Source of the DNA: Pelomonas sp. V22
GTDB taxonomy: Bacteria; Pseudomonadota; Gammaproteobacteria; Burkholderiales; Burkholderiaceae_C
Assembly: GCF_030014915.1 (NCBI RefSeq)
Contig: NZ_JAGIXS010000002.1
Span: 524,296-588,295 of the forward strand
Reading direction: 5' to 3'
Length of the DNA stretch: 64,000 bases
This document shows, piece by piece, positions 17,434-63,765 of this stretch. Within the stretch, counting starts at the first letter, position 1, and each line of letters begins with the position of its first letter. The notes beneath the pieces are model-generated. The model did not search any database. It was not told the DNA's origin and worked only from the letters and a program-made list of their open reading frames with translations. The translations under genes and the position numbers were made by a program.

Positions 17434-18246
17434 TCAGCGGCCGAACAGGCGCTTGAAGAAGCCGGGCTTGACCGCTTCAATGAAGCGCATCGGCTTGTCT
17501 TCGCCGAGGAAGCGCGACACCACATCGGCATAGGCCTCGGCCACCTCGCTGCCCTTCATGTGGATGGCCGGCGTGCCCTGGTTGGACGCCTGCAGCACCA
17601 CTTCGCTTTCGGGGATCACGCCGATCAGCGGCGTGCGCAGGATCTCGTGGATGTCCTCCAGCGACAGCATCTGGCCACCCTCGACCCGGTTCGGGTTGTA
17701 GCGGGTGATCAGGAGATGCTCCTTGACCGGCTCCTTGCCTTCGATCGCGCGCTTGGTCTTGCTGTTCAGCATGCCGAGGATGCGGTCGGAGTCGCGCACC
17801 GAGGAGACCTCGGGATTGGTCACCACCAGGGCCTCGTCGGCGAAGTGCATGGCCATCAGCGCACCGGTTTCGATGCCGGCTGGCGAGTCGCAGACGATGT
17901 AATCGAACTCCATCTCTTTGAGCTCGTTCAGCACGCGCTCGACGCCTTCCTGCTTCAGCGCGTCCTTGTCGCGCGTCTGCGAGGCGGCGAGGATGTAGAG
18001 CTTCTCGAGCTGCTTGTCCTTGATCAGGGCCTGGCTCAGCTTGATCTCGTCGTTGATCACGTTGATCAGGTCGTAGACCACGCGGCGTTCCACGCCCATG
18101 ATCAGGTCCAGGTTGCGCAGACCGACGTCGAAGTCGATCACCGCCGTCTTGTAGCCGCGCAAAGCGAGGCCCGTCGCAAAGCTGGCGCTGGTGGTGGTCT
18201 TGCCGACCCCGCCCTTGCCCGAGGTCACCACGACGATCTTGGTCAT
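17434..18246 (-). CDS. minD: Septum-site determining ATPase MinD
   Basis: Membrane-cycling ATPase of 270 residues that recruits MinC to the membrane and is released by MinE. The deviant Walker A GKGGVGKT is at residues 10-17, DFDVGLRNLDL and CDSPAGIE follow, and the C-terminal amphipathic membrane helix KPGFFKRLFGR is intact. A ribosome site (AAGGA) precedes ATG 18246. It sits between minC and minE. A hairpin followed by a T-rich stretch lies in the 58-base gap after minC. Confidence 0.97.
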   Translation of the reverse strand: MTKIVVVTSGKGGVGKTTTSASFATGLALRGYKTAVIDFDVGLRNLDLIMGVERRVVYDLINVINDEIKLSQALIKDKQLEKLYILAASQTRDKDALKQEGVERVLNELKEMEFDYIVCDSPAGIETGALMAMHFADEALVVTNPEVSSVRDSDRILGMLNSKTKRAIEGKEPVKEHLLITRYNPNRVEGGQMLSLEDIHEILRTPLIGVIPESEVVLQASNQGTPAIHMKGSEVAEAYADVVSRFLGEDKPMRFIEAVKPGFFKRLFGR

Positions 18247-18304: not shown

Positions 18305-19174
18305 TCAGAGTTTCAGGGCTTCCATCACCAGCTTCTCGCCCTCCAGGCGCACCTGGGCCGGCTTGGCCAGCACCTCGGGCGGCAGCGGGTTCTCGGTAGT
18401 GCGGTAGATGCCGGCGATGGCAATCAGTTCGGCTTCGAGGCTGGCGGCGAAGATGCGCGCCTCGGTGTTGCCGCGCGCACCGGCAATCGCCTTGCCACGC
18501 AGCGGTGCGTAGACGTGGATGCTGCCGTCGGCAATCACCTCGGCGCCATGGTTCACGAGGGCCAGCACCACCAGGTCGGCACCCTTGGCATAGACCTGCT
18601 GGCCGGAGCGCAAAGGCTTGTCGACGATGACGGTGCGGCTGCTCTCAGCCGCCACTTCGCGCACCACCTCGACCTCGCGCACCACTTCCTTGACGACTTC
18701 CTTGATCACGGTCTGCACACGCGGCTCGGCGGCGCGCGGTTCGGCGCGGGCACCCAGCGGTGCTTCGACGAGGCCGAGGGCCAGGGCCTGCTCGCGTTGT
18801 GCGTCGCTGGCGCCAGCCACGGCCACAGGCCGCAAGCCGTAGCCACGCAGCAGCGCCAGCAGGCCGGTCATGTCCAAGGCCTGCGCGGCTTCGGTCAGGC
18901 TCAGCTGGCCGGACTGGGCTTCCAAGGGGACGCTCGGCAGTTGGGAGAGATCAATCAGCAGGCCCTCGTCCTCGAACTGCTGCTCGCCCAGACGCTCCTG
19001 CATTTCGGCAGCCAGGGCCGTCAGGTCGCTGCTGCGCAGCACCAGGGCCAGCAGGCTCACCGACGCGCTTTTCAGCTCGAACAAGTCGGCGGCGCGGCTG
19101 CCGCCCGCAGCCTGGGAGCCCCCTGCCATACCGGAAGACCGGCCCCTCACCTTACCCGCCATCTGTTCGGCCAT
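18305..19174 (-). CDS. minC: Septum-site determining protein MinC
   Basis: Inhibitor of FtsZ polymerisation at the cell poles, 289 residues. The N-terminal FtsZ-inhibiting domain covers about residues 30-110. A variable linker follows with charged repeats (VIKEVVKEVVREVEVVREV), and the C-terminal beta-helix MinD-binding domain comes last (RSGQQVYAKGADLVVL, GSIHVYAPLRGKAIAGARGN). The linker is longer and more coiled-coil-like than in E. coli (231 residues). First gene of minCDE; a promoter candidate lies about 140 bases upstream. Confidence 0.94.
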   Translation of the reverse strand: MAEQMAGKVRGRSSGMAGGSQAAGGSRAADLFELKSASVSLLALVLRSSDLTALAAEMQERLGEQQFEDEGLLIDLSQLPSVPLEAQSGQLSLTEAAQALDMTGLLALLRGYGLRPVAVAGASDAQREQALALGLVEAPLGARAEPRAAEPRVQTVIKEVVKEVVREVEVVREVAAESSRTVIVDKPLRSGQQVYAKGADLVVLALVNHGAEVIADGSIHVYAPLRGKAIAGARGNTEARIFAASLEAELIAIAGIYRTTENPLPPEVLAKPAQVRLEGEKLVMEALKL

Positions 19175-28967: not shown

Positions 28968-29594
28968 TCAGGAATCCAGCCAGGCACACAGCGGCTGCCA
29001 CTGCACCAGGTCGCGCTCGACCCGGCTCTGCGCCACGTCCCAGAGGCTGGCGCCACGGGCCGCCAGTTGCACATAGTTCTGCGTGTCGCGCAGCAGGCCC
29101 AGCACCGGCACCTCCAGGGTGTGCAGGAACTGCTGCAGCTGCTCGACCGACAGCGTGCCCTCCTTGGCCCGCATGCCCACCACGGCGAGCTTCGGGCCAG
29201 CGCCGTGGCGCTTCTTGCGCAGATCATGCAGCTCGGCGACGAAGTCGTATGTCGCCTGGATGTCAAACAGGCTGGGCTGCAGCGGGATCAAGAGCTTGTC
29301 AGCGATCTTGACCAGGTCCTCCAGCGGCTTGCCATGCAGGCCGGCCGGGGTGTCGAGCACCACATGGCTCACGCCCTTGGGCGGCTTGGCCAGGTGCTCG
29401 TCCACCATGCCCCAGCCCTGGATGGGCGGCAGTTGCGGCGGCCGCACCGAAAGCCAGCGGCGGCTGCTCTGCTGTCGGTCCACGTCGCCGAGCATCACCG
29501 CATGGCCCTGCCTAGCCAGGTAACCAGCCACGTTGCTGGCGATGGTGCTCTTGCCAACGCCACCCTTGGGATTGGCGATCAGGATCACGGGCAT
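28968..29594 (-). CDS. ParA/MinD-superfamily ATPase, single-gene type
   Basis: 208-residue ATPase with the deviant Walker A KGGVGKST right at the N-terminus (ANPKGGVGKSTIASNVAGYL) and Walker B-like VVLDTPAGLHG. It is compact, lacks a DNA-binding N-terminal extension, and has no ParB gene next to it. It therefore more likely positions a protein cargo (as MipZ or ParC do) than segregates a plasmid. A GAGGAG precedes ATG 29594. The gene heads a leftward pair with MaoC and diverges from the kef genes. Confidence 0.85.
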   Translation of the reverse strand: MPVILIANPKGGVGKSTIASNVAGYLARQGHAVMLGDVDRQQSSRRWLSVRPPQLPPIQGWGMVDEHLAKPPKGVSHVVLDTPAGLHGKPLEDLVKIADKLLIPLQPSLFDIQATYDFVAELHDLRKKRHGAGPKLAVVGMRAKEGTLSVEQLQQFLHTLEVPVLGLLRDTQNYVQLAARGASLWDVAQSRVERDLVQWQPLCAWLDS

Positions 29595-60584: not shown

Positions 60585-61298
60585 TTACCAGTCGCGCAAC
60601 TTCACTCGCAAGCGGGCGATTGCCTGGCTGTGTAGCTGGCAGACACGCGATTCGGTCACCTTCAGCACGGCGGCGATCTCTTTCAGGTTCATGTCATGTT
60701 CGTAGTACATGGACATGACATAGCCCTCGCGCTCGGGCAGGTTCTTGATCGCCACCACCAGGGCCTCGCGCATGCGGTGGTCCTGCAGCATGGCCATGGG
60801 GTTGGCAGCGGCATCGGCGACATGGCGGTCGAGGTAGTCGTCATCGCCGTCATCGCCCGACATGTCTTCCAGGTAGACCAGCTGGGTGCCGCGCACCTTG
60901 CCGAGCAACTCCTGGTACTCGGCGAGGCTCAAGCCCATCTCGGCGGCGATTTCGCTCTCATGCGGGGCGCGGCCGAGGCGCTGCTCAACCTTGTGCACCG
61001 CCGTCTCGATGGAACGCTGCTGGCGGCGCGTGCCGCGGCTCATCCAGTCGCCGCCGCGAAGTTCGTCCAGCATGGCGCCGCGGATGCGCTGGGTGGCGAA
61101 GGTCTCGAATTGCACGCCCTGGGCGGTGTCGAAGCGCGACAGCGCATCGGTCAGGCCGATCAGGCCGACCTGGATCAAATCGTCGAGCTCGACGTTGGCA
61201 GGCAGCTTGGCAATCATCTGGTGGGCCAGGCGGCGCACCAGCGGGCTGTACTGCTTGAGCATCGCAGAGGTCTCGAGCCGACCTTTGGCGGTGTACAT
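60585..61298 (-). CDS. fliA: Flagellar sigma factor FliA (sigma-28)
   Basis: 237 residues. Directs RNA polymerase to late flagellar and chemotaxis promoters and is held by FlgM. Region 2 (LIQVGLIGLTDALSRFDTAQ, FETFATQRIRGAMLDELRGG) and region 4 (LKEIAAVLKVTESRVCQLHS) are clear. The start is ATG 61298, with GGAG 6 bases upstream. It follows flhG by 17 bases in the usual flhA-flhF-flhG-fliA order. Two matching promoter sites are seen in this window (flgM, hybrid kinase). Confidence 0.96.
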   Translation of the reverse strand: MYTAKGRLETSAMLKQYSPLVRRLAHQMIAKLPANVELDDLIQVGLIGLTDALSRFDTAQGVQFETFATQRIRGAMLDELRGGDWMSRGTRRQQRSIETAVHKVEQRLGRAPHESEIAAEMGLSLAEYQELLGKVRGTQLVYLEDMSGDDGDDDYLDRHVADAAANPMAMLQDHRMREALVVAIKNLPEREGYVMSMYYEHDMNLKEIAAVLKVTESRVCQLHSQAIARLRVKLRDW

Positions 61299-61315
61299 CC
61301 TTGTCTCCTGCGATT

Positions 61316-62134
61316 TCACAGCGCAGCCAGCGTGGCCGCTTGCTGCGATTGTCGGGCAACGGGGCGCAGGGGCGCGGCGTCTGCCGAGGCCTCAAGCATC
61401 GCTCCGGGCGGCGCCGCGATCAAGAGCTCGCGGGCCAGAAATCGCATTTCCGAGGACATTGGCACACTGGCCGGCTGCTTGGGGTCCAGGCAGGCCCAGT
61501 CGCGCAGCACGGCGCCGAGGAAGCCATCGGCGCAGGAGCTGATTTGCTGGGCAATGCGCTCCGAGAGGCGCAGCCGGGGCGGGCTGGCCAGCAGCAGGCT
61601 GTAAACCATCAGGCCGGCGCGCTGGGCCAGCCATTTCATGCCGCTGTAGGCATGGGTGACGCTGCGCGGGTCGGTGTCGGCCAGCAGCACAGGGCGCAGC
61701 TCGCGGGTGGCGACCACGCGGGCCAGCTCAGCCGCGCTGGCGTGCACCAGCACCACGTCGGCATGCGGGCAGGCCGCCGCCACCGCCTCGAGGAACTGGG
61801 CCGCCGAGCCCTGGGCGTTGATGTAGCGCATCGGCAGGCCGCGCGCCGCCAGGTAGGAGACCTGGGCTGACAGCGGCTCCACGCAGGCAGCGAGGTCGAT
61901 GGCCGCCAGCTCATTGGCCTGTGGCGAAAGCTCGCCGGCATCGACCACCAGCGTATGCAGGCCCAGTTCAGCGAAGGCCGCGCACAGGCCTTCCAGCAAG
62001 GCGCCGGAGCCGACCACATGGGGATTGGACAAGACCGGTACGAAGCGCATGCGCGAGCTGGCGAACAGGCGGCGCAGGCCGTCGGCCTGGTCCAGCGGTG
62101 CGGGGCTGAGGGCTTGCTGGCGATCGCGCATCAT
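61316..62134 (-). CDS. flhG: FlhG-like flagellar number regulator with degenerate ATP-binding site
   Basis: 272 residues in the flhG position between flhF and fliA. The FlhG N-terminal motif DQADGLRRL is present at residues 15-23; in characterised FlhG, DQAxxLR activates the FlhF GTPase. The MinD-like core follows, but where KGGVGKT is expected the sequence reads SNPHVVGSGALLEG, so the P-loop lysine and the GK(T/S) are missing. The second region LHTLVVDAGELS keeps the strand-D. It therefore looks like an FlhG that has lost ATP hydrolysis. Two ATGs (62134, 62131) are possible. Confidence 0.82.
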   Translation of the reverse strand: MMRDRQQALSPAPLDQADGLRRLFASSRMRFVPVLSNPHVVGSGALLEGLCAAFAELGLHTLVVDAGELSPQANELAAIDLAACVEPLSAQVSYLAARGLPMRYINAQGSAAQFLEAVAAACPHADVVLVHASAAELARVVATRELRPVLLADTDPRSVTHAYSGMKWLAQRAGLMVYSLLLASPPRLRLSERIAQQISSCADGFLGAVLRDWACLDPKQPASVPMSSEMRFLARELLIAAPPGAMLEASADAAPLRPVARQSQQAATLAAL

Positions 62135-62145
62135 GGTGTCTTGCT

Positions 62146-63765
62146 TCAGAAGCTGCCCATCGGCTGGGCATGGACATTCGGATTCGCAGCAGCGGACAGC
62201 GCGGGTCCACCGGCGAAGATCAGGTTGACGTCGGAGGCGTCCATGCGCCAGGCCGGCGTGGCCACGCTGCGCAAGGCACGCTGCACCAAGGCCGGGCTGG
62301 AGAGGCGGTGCCAGTCTTCCGGCACGCGCTGGCCATTCGTGACGGCGACCACCTTGAGCTTGTGGCGGATCATGGTGTCCAGCGCCGGCGCGAGGCGCAC
62401 AGCCTCGTCGATCTTGGACAGCAGCACGCCATAGGCATCGGCACCGCGCCAGGCCGTGACCACGTCGTCGATGGTCTCGCCCTGCTGGGCCGCATTGACG
62501 ACCAGCAGCTTGCGGATGCTGCGGTGGGTCAGCATGTCCAGCAGCTCGGCCGTGCGGCTGTCGCGCTGGGCCATGCCGGCGGTGTCGATCAGCACCATCT
62601 TCTTGCTGGCGAGCAGCTCGAGCAGGTCTTCCAACGAAGCGCGGTCATGGGCCGTGTGGACCGGCACGCCGAGGATGCGGCCATAGGCGCGCAGTTGCTC
62701 ATGGGCGCCGACGCGGTAGGCGTCCAGCGTGATCAGGCCAAGGTTGACCGCGCCGAAGCGCGTGGCAAAGGCGGCGGCGATCTTGGCCGTGGTCGTGGTC
62801 TTGCCCACGCCGGTGGAGCCGATCAGGGCAAACACACCGCCCTGCTCTTCCAGCGGCGGCGCGGCTTCGTCGGTCACCAGGTTGCGCGACAGCACATTGG
62901 CGGCCCAGGCGGTTTCATCCGGGCCGTGGTGGTCGGCCGGCAGGCCCTCGACCAGCTTGCGCACCAGGGCCGGCGAGAAGCCGACTTCCAAGAGCTTCTG
63001 CGTCAGCTGGGCTTGGGCCGGCTGGCGCTGGAGCTTCTCCATGAAGGCCAGGGCGCCAAAGCGCTCCTCGATCAGGCCCTTCATCGAGCGCAGCTCGTTC
63101 ATCATGTCCTGCTGCTCGCGGCGGCCACGGCCGGCATCGCGCTCGGCCAGTGTGGGCACGGAGGGCATGTCGATGCGGATCTCGTCGCGCAGCACCGGCG
63201 GCGTGATGCGGCGCGGTGCAGGCTCGGGTGCGGGCGCCGGTGTCTGGCGCGGCTGCATGGCCCGCAGCGCGGCCTCGGCGCGCTGGCGGCGGGCGGCCTG
63301 CAGCGAGGTCACGTCGTCGGGCAATTCAGGCGCGGCGGGGCGGGTTGGCGGGGCCTGCAGCAGCGGGTCGGGCTGGCCGGAGAGTTCGGCCTGGCGGCGC
63401 TTGAGCATGCGCTCGCGCACATAGTCCTGGAAAGACAGCGTGCTCATCGCCAGCGTCTGCACGTCTTCACCGACTTCAGCCGCGCTCGCGGCAAAGCTCG
63501 GCTCGGTGCGGCCGCGCAAGCTGGAACGTGCGGGCGCCAGATCCGCCGGGCGGGCCTGCACGCGGCTCGGGGAGCGCGGCTCGGCGCGCGGCGCGCTGGC
63601 TGCCGCCTTCTCGATCTGGGCCATGCCCTCGGGTGCCATCGCCAGCACCTCGACGCCGGCGGCGCAAGGCTTGTTGGACAGTACGACGGCCTCGTCACCA
63701 AAGGCCTGGCGGACCAGGGCGAGTGCCTCGCGGGAGGTGCGGGCGGTGAAGCGCTTCACATTCAT
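62146..63765 (-). CDS. flhF: Flagellar placement GTPase FlhF
   Basis: 539-residue SRP-family GTPase that places the flagellum, usually at the pole. The N-terminal MNVKRFTARTSREALALVRQ is typical. A proline/alanine-rich variable region and N domain follow, then the G domain with Walker A GSTGVGKTTTTAKI (about residue 314), TLDAYRVGAHEQLRAYG and the switch VLIDTAGMAQRD. The start overlaps the flhA stop by four bases. Presence of flhF suggests polar flagella. Confidence 0.95.
   Translation of the reverse strand: MNVKRFTARTSREALALVRQAFGDEAVVLSNKPCAAGVEVLAMAPEGMAQIEKAAASAPRAEPRSPSRVQARPADLAPARSSLRGRTEPSFAASAAEVGEDVQTLAMSTLSFQDYVRERMLKRRQAELSGQPDPLLQAPPTRPAAPELPDDVTSLQAARRQRAEAALRAMQPRQTPAPAPEPAPRRITPPVLRDEIRIDMPSVPTLAERDAGRGRREQQDMMNELRSMKGLIEERFGALAFMEKLQRQPAQAQLTQKLLEVGFSPALVRKLVEGLPADHHGPDETAWAANVLSRNLVTDEAAPPLEEQGGVFALIGSTGVGKTTTTAKIAAAFATRFGAVNLGLITLDAYRVGAHEQLRAYGRILGVPVHTAHDRASLEDLLELLASKKMVLIDTAGMAQRDSRTAELLDMLTHRSIRKLLVVNAAQQGETIDDVVTAWRGADAYGVLLSKIDEAVRLAPALDTMIRHKLKVVAVTNGQRVPEDWHRLSSPALVQRALRSVATPAWRMDASDVNLIFAGGPALSAAANPNVHAQPMGSF

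Follow-up and report, generated by a model that had tools for sequence, protein, structure and literature searches.

Descriptions of FlhG present it as an ATPase with a nucleotide cycle that contributes to the counting of flagella. The closest described systems are the FlhG/FleN/YlxH proteins of polar flagellates and Bacillus, which are encoded after flhF and combine an N-terminal DQAxxLR helix with a SIMIBI fold. The review PMC12826062 presents the glutamine of this activator helix as a co-catalytic residue for FlhF, giving FlhG a GTPase-activating (GAP) role, and it also covers the role of FlhG with FlrA/FleQ. For Vibrio alginolyticus, PMC7226244 reports that mutations in the deviant Walker A motif impair FlhG and that the K31A mutant is hyperflagellated; by this account the helix alone is insufficient in that organism. 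A description of a FlhG without a P-loop was not found in the titles and abstract openings of the matches listed, a weak negative in which subscription journals are thinly covered.

We analyzed a stretch of 64,000 nucleotides from Pelomonas sp. V22 (the window), in which the gene following flhF codes for such a protein. The original prediction held that its DQADGLRRL motif is intact and that KGGVGKT is replaced by a lysine-free sequence. Both statements were borne out by the ORF translation and the alignments, in which SNPHVVGSG stands where intact FlhG has SGKGGVGKT. The ORF occupies its interval exactly, starts with ATG and encodes 272 amino acids. Like the described proteins, this lysine-less FlhG shares the place after flhF, the helix with its co-catalytic glutamine and, in the predicted model, the MinD-like SIMIBI fold; it differs in having no deviant Walker A motif (xKGGxxK[ST]), catalytic Asp, Walker B Asp or recognizable C-terminal membrane helix. 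It resembles the V. alginolyticus K31A protein (PMC7226244) in the missing deviant Walker A lysine, but K31A is reported there as a non-functional, hyperflagellated mutant, whereas here the loss is a natural and conserved state. The features are collected in Table 1.

Table 1. Features of the flagellar locus and related ATPase genes; positions refer to the window unless a genome (G000, the host) or locus is given.
Feature	Position	Strand	Basis
Gene in the flhG place, predicted FlhG-fold product without nucleotide motifs	61316..62134	-	ORF, alignments, predicted fold
Activator (enhancer) helix motif DQADGLRRL, residues 15-23	62066..62092	-	ORF translation, alignments
Deviant Walker A position, SNPHVVGSG, residues 36-44, without lysine	62003..62029	-	alignment to intact GKGGVGKT
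A-prime strand LVVDAGE, residues 62-68; first Asp present, second (catalytic) Asp of DAD gone	61931..61951	-	alignment
Walker B position (residues 126-133), reading DVVLVHAS; His131 stands in place of the Asp of DTAAG	61736..61759	-	alignment
C-terminal tail from residue 241, including stop	61316..61414	-	alignment; low model confidence
flhF, SRP-type GTPase gene	62146..63765	-	sequence; TIGR03499 248.8 bits (cut-off 174.15)
Flagellar sigma factor gene, presumably fliA, directly downstream of the flhG gene	60585..61319	-	ORF
Intact septal MinD (GKGGVGKT), not FlhG	17434..18246	-	groups with MinD in tree
FlhG2, FlhG-like MinD/ParA ATPase	G000:C2:502858-503640 (= L319:9356-10141)	minus in L319	sequence motifs

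The protein had no match in NCBIfam, and Pfam returned only CbiA below threshold (13.2 bits, cut-off 25.4). The gene lies between flhF and an ORF that we take, from its sequence features, to be fliA (its true start is possibly further inside the ORF), a position unlike that of a septal MinD, which is found with minC/minE. The adjoining FlhF has intact GTPase motifs (GSTGVGKTT, DTAG, SKID). Relatives of all three genes occur together in 83 of the 84 family loci fetched with flhF, the 84th being cut by a contig end, and an intact P-loop motif was seen in none of the 84 FlhG sequences from these loci. The structural model (pLDDT 87.3, pTM 0.82) found its best matches in FleN 5j1j (Z 17.8), FlhG 4rz3 (Z 17.6) and FlhG 4rz2, so that the FlhG/FleN fold is predicted to be retained. 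Judged by its sequence, the gene is an FlhG orthologue.

At E 1e-3, 94 of 200 family genomes match the lysine-less query. To avoid relying on this query, homologues were collected by way of flhF, so that the motif played no part in their selection. Profile TIGR03499 scored over its cut-off in 143/200 genomes of the family, 81/120 of the order and 45/94 of the class, the host genome being counted in each. We sampled 124 loci for the 143 family genomes, 70 of 78 in the order outside the family, and the best-scoring 30 of 44 in the class. The gene after flhF could be read in 216 of the 224 loci, a usable downstream FlhG being missing in L071, L142, L159, L161, L162, L164, L165 and L201; in the family this concerns 7 of 124 loci, six with no match beyond flhF and one with a merged frame. 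All counts across genomes are raw and ignore kinship.

Outside the order, GKGG.GK[TS] is intact in 30/30 of these best-scoring class rows. Among the 117 family rows, the signature lysine and GK[ST] are both missing in 112, three rows are intact and two are gapped. The three intact sequences (loci L160, L163 and L166 in genomes G165, G158 and G025) branch next to, but not within, the beta clade of the tree; the accompanying flhF genes are little like that of the window (130-150 bits), the genomes are FlhC-negative, and their flagella were probably acquired. This leaves 114 native family sequences, of which 112 have neither motif and two are gapped; 110 are without lysine at both places, and two have a lysine at the second place with no S/T after it. 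Since these sequences were reached via flhF, the 112/114 exclude chance or a sequencing slip. In the rest of the order, both the signature lysine and GK[ST] are missing from 47 of 69 rows, 44 of these having no lysine at either place, while 18 keep GK[ST] only, two the signature lysine only, one both (SKAGLGKT) and one is gapped. The group of rows with neither motif includes five with a second-place lysine but no S/T (two in the family, three in the order), and the rows gapped at the P-loop are L145, L156 and L208.

The losses read from the alignments extend past the P-loop to the other nucleotide motifs. Walker B Asp is present in 3/114 native family rows, the catalytic Asp in 1/114 and the first A-prime Asp in 109/114; the Walker B position holds His in 79/114 and Tyr in 23/114, and the His is invariant across the window's own subgroup (49 aligned sequences). 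In the order rows with neither motif, Walker B Asp is present in 34/47 and the catalytic Asp in 3/47; in those that keep GK[ST], the catalytic Asp is gone in 18/18 and Walker B Asp present in 16/18. Thus, the alignment across Burkholderiales proposed with the original prediction gives P-loop loss as the normal state of the family and a graded state elsewhere: by alignment, the decay of the ATPase site is graded across the order, with a clade-wide loss in the family, and is not peculiar to the host genome. At the C-terminus, no counterpart of the gammaproteobacterial membrane-targeting helix GHLEFFVERL was seen in the window protein or in the family consensus. A gap at the first Phe of this helix occurs in 98/114 native family rows, yet also in 14/30 gammaproteobacterial rows; the membrane helix has probably been lost as well.

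The activator helix carries its co-catalytic Gln in 210/210 scorable rows, whatever the state of the P-loop, a count to be read with caution because the profile that found and aligned the flhG rows was seeded with motif-bearing sequences; six further rows are gapped here (L145, L156, L167, L208, L229 and L236). A whole-protein search gave 20 family sequences in which the motif residues D, Q, A, G, L and R do not vary, and the same holds for 49 sequences, some of them fetched by the motif itself. Among native family rows the motif varies, with Asp in 90/111 and Arg in 89/111 scorable rows.

Codon comparison of 11 close flhG pairs gave dN/dS of 0.01-0.29 in all 11, which rules out a pseudogene; the flhF and fliA ORFs in this comparison ran from stop to stop, and their values are rough. 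Invariant residues (e.g., THAY..K) are spread over the whole fold, and the conservation of the rest of the domain suggests that it does more than carry the helix. Taken together, the retained Gln, the low dN/dS, the model matches and the motif losses, as read from alignments and codons, describe a maintained FlhG-fold protein without a recognizable nucleotide site.

Named relatives were also compared, in a biased sample fetched with a lysine-less profile and partly via the helix motif: KGG and GK[ST] are missing from the first 60 residues in 80/80 loci among the matches listed. These are mostly from Roseateles, Paucibacter, Mitsuaria, Pelomonas, Rhizobacter, Rubrivivax, Methylibium, Piscinibacter and unnamed Burkholderiales bins. 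The annotated FlhG of Burkholderia glumae BGR1 and the unannotated ORF after flhF of Cupriavidus metallidurans CH34 are more conservative versions, with neither lysine. For B. glumae, PMC3885665 describes polar flagella, polar FlhF-eGFP and a dependence of flhF on FlhDC, and for B. cenocepacia, PMC4905959 describes numbers of flagella per cell that vary with the medium and depend on FlhF.

FlhC is present in the host genome, and PF06490, a marker for FleQ, had no match there. Two FlhC genes with identical scores lie about 2 kb apart outside the window (G000:C2:595302-595814 and 597374-597886), and similar close pairs were seen in G111, G075, G034, G013 and G007. FlhDC as the sole cause of the erosion was dropped, since, elsewhere in the order, the state with neither motif is as common without FlhC (28/42) as with it (19/27). 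PF06490 matched in 50/120 order genomes, weakly (best 31.8 bits), which is no proof of FleQ.

The host genome has eight PF13614 matches. In the window, the septal MinD belongs to the same superfamily as the lysine-less FlhG; it differs in being intact, in forming a separate clade in the trees and in lying beside an ORF (18305-19174) that is presumably minC. A small ParA-like protein with KGGVGKS is encoded away from the flagellar genes (28968-29594, minus strand). The original prediction had named a second, intact FlhG/MinD paralogue as evidence against it, and a candidate, FlhG2, is among the eight. The identity of the gene by place, fold and helix, the P-loop loss and the FlhF neighbor with intact GTPase motifs stand; the accompanying proposal that only the FlhF-activating role may remain is weakened by the existence of this candidate.

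FlhG2 ends 20.7 kb before the window start, about 83 kb from flhF. It is of FlhG type in sequence (41% identical to P. aeruginosa FleN, 40-44% to FlhG-like matches of the class) and differs from the lysine-less FlhG in that its ATPase motifs are intact (GKGGVGKT, DADLGLANLD, DTGAG) and it has no DQAxxLR helix. None of the FlhG2 loci (0/39) shows a DQA-type motif within 60 residues upstream of the P-loop. Next to it lies a co-oriented GGDEF gene, followed on the other strand by cheR, cheD and an ORF that we take to be cheB-like. The same-strand GGDEF (diguanylate cyclase) gene adjoins FlhG2 in 39/39 loci from 38 genomes, and cheR lies within the read flank in 33/39. Many family genomes have this separate ATPase besides the lysine-less FlhG: orthologues with at least 57% identity (next matches at most 40%) occur in 121/200, namely in 119/143 with FlhF and 2/57 without FlhF over the cut-off, or, with one genome per genus, in 84/100 and 1/41. 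The two exceptions, both FlhC-positive, are G040 (74% complete) and G148 (470 contigs), and six of the 57 (G037, G080, G087, G092, G124 and G184) do have an flhF-like match, though a weaker one (91-123 bits), close to which lies a 30-36% FlhG2-like match. In five FlhF-positive family genomes a 39-40% FlhG2-like match lies directly by flhF, with an intact P-loop in the three that were read (not G032 and G049); FlhG2 is found in 0/5 of these vs 119/138 of the others (Fisher p 9e-5, ignoring kinship). These five genomes (G165, G158, G025, G032 and G049) have an intact or FlhG2-like FlhG beside flhF and neither FlhC nor FlhG2, and look as if another polar flagellar system had displaced the native one.

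Of the 24 FlhF-positive family genomes without FlhG2, 19 are without an intact-type neighbor of flhF. In the order outside the family, orthologues of at least 55% identity were found in 2/117 genomes (G269 and G288), and every match obtained outside the family in the phylum sample (E 1e-48) has 40-48% identity. An flhF-like ORF stands beside the gene in three of four such phylum loci read. Two loci of this sample, L383 and L385, show the reverse of the lysine-less FlhG: beside an flhF-like ORF stands an FlhG with an intact P-loop and, within the 40 residues preceding that P-loop, no DQAxxLR motif was seen. No plasmid match was obtained for FlhG2 at 1e-40; at 1e-15 there were 34 records, all below 60% identity. 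In the larger tree, the FlhG2 sequences group together (99/99, with the bootstrap not settled) next to the whole of FlhG; in the smaller tree the grouping is weak (53/77) and the placement relative to MinD ambiguous (87/59). Neither places it within beta FlhG, and its origin as a duplicate of beta FlhG is unsupported.

Our preferred reading, to which we assign a probability of about 0.68, is that the lysine-less FlhG is a nucleotide-independent activator of FlhF that descended from an ordinary FlhG and lost the ATP switch. The FlhF dimer would receive the Gln of DQAxGLR from the N-terminal helix, leading to GTP hydrolysis and FlhF release in the way described for other FlhG proteins, and the remainder of the lysine-less FlhG would serve as a folded scaffold that is probably always monomer-like. 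The ATP-driven dimer and the membrane and FlrA/FleQ switch would be gone; flagellar number would then have to be set otherwise, through how strongly the flhBAFG/FlhDC programme is expressed, through another factor, or both. We infer the GAP activity, the absence of ATP binding, the monomeric state and the effect on flagellar number from sequence together with papers on other species. As lysine loss abolishes function in Vibrio according to PMC7226244, the beta system must work differently, through expression level, contacts of the remaining fold or, in the family, FlhG2. That the protein still binds a nucleotide or another ligand at the altered site, and hence still switches, is improbable: the first A-prime Asp and the invariant subgroup His would fit such a site, but the conserved residues are perhaps structural, and the Walker A lysines and the catalytic Asp are almost uniformly gone from native family sequences. 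Even less probable is a decaying, nearly functionless protein, dispensable once the FlhDC programme had replaced FleQ/FlrA and retained by linkage to flhF only. Such decay would agree with the stepwise erosion across the order, with the family loci that have no usable FlhG and with the enterobacteria, which are thought to have beta-type flagella and are without flhFG as described in PMC12826062; the dN/dS well below 1, the invariant residues across the fold and an erosion that is independent of FlhC argue against it.

A tentative possibility is that the two proteins divide the work, the lysine-less FlhG providing the FlhF-activating helix and the helix-less FlhG2 the ATP-dependent control of number or position, possibly influenced by c-di-GMP from the adjoining diguanylate cyclase gene; within this arrangement the two might pair, and FlhG2 may supply the ATP control. 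The complementary motifs, the co-occurrence of FlhG2 with FlhF, its absence where an FlhG2-like gene lies by flhF and the constant diguanylate cyclase neighbor speak for it, and FlhG2 with its GGDEF neighbor may be a new connection of a positioning ATPase to c-di-GMP. However, ATPase loss does not require FlhG2, since the FlhG of the order outside the family is eroded in most rows and FlhG2 is found there in two genomes. The FlhF-positive family genomes without FlhG2 also count against this arrangement, as does its position in the trees, and because FlhG2 lies near che genes its co-occurrence with FlhF may merely reflect flagella plus chemotaxis. FlhG2 is thus only a candidate for the lost role; such a takeover would be attractive, but nearly all order members read with an eroded FlhG are without it. 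The specific form for the Burkholderiaceae, in which FlhG function is split between an ATPase-dead FlhF activator and a helix-less FlhG2, unlinked to flhF, that ties number or position control to c-di-GMP, we consider rather doubtful.

On the preferred reading of a nucleotide-independent FlhF activator, an ATPase site eroded across an order with the FlhF-activating Gln kept would amount to a natural separation-of-function experiment that points to the indispensable half of FlhG. It would bear on the role of FlhG where FlrA/FleQ, the partner described in PMC12826062, is not the partner. The lysine-less FlhG may also resemble a step toward the enteric state without flhFG, enteric flagella being thought, according to the same review, to be of betaproteobacterial origin. 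If true, the split between the lysine-less FlhG and FlhG2 would mean that nature has separated two activities which a single protein combines in the FlhG models studied.
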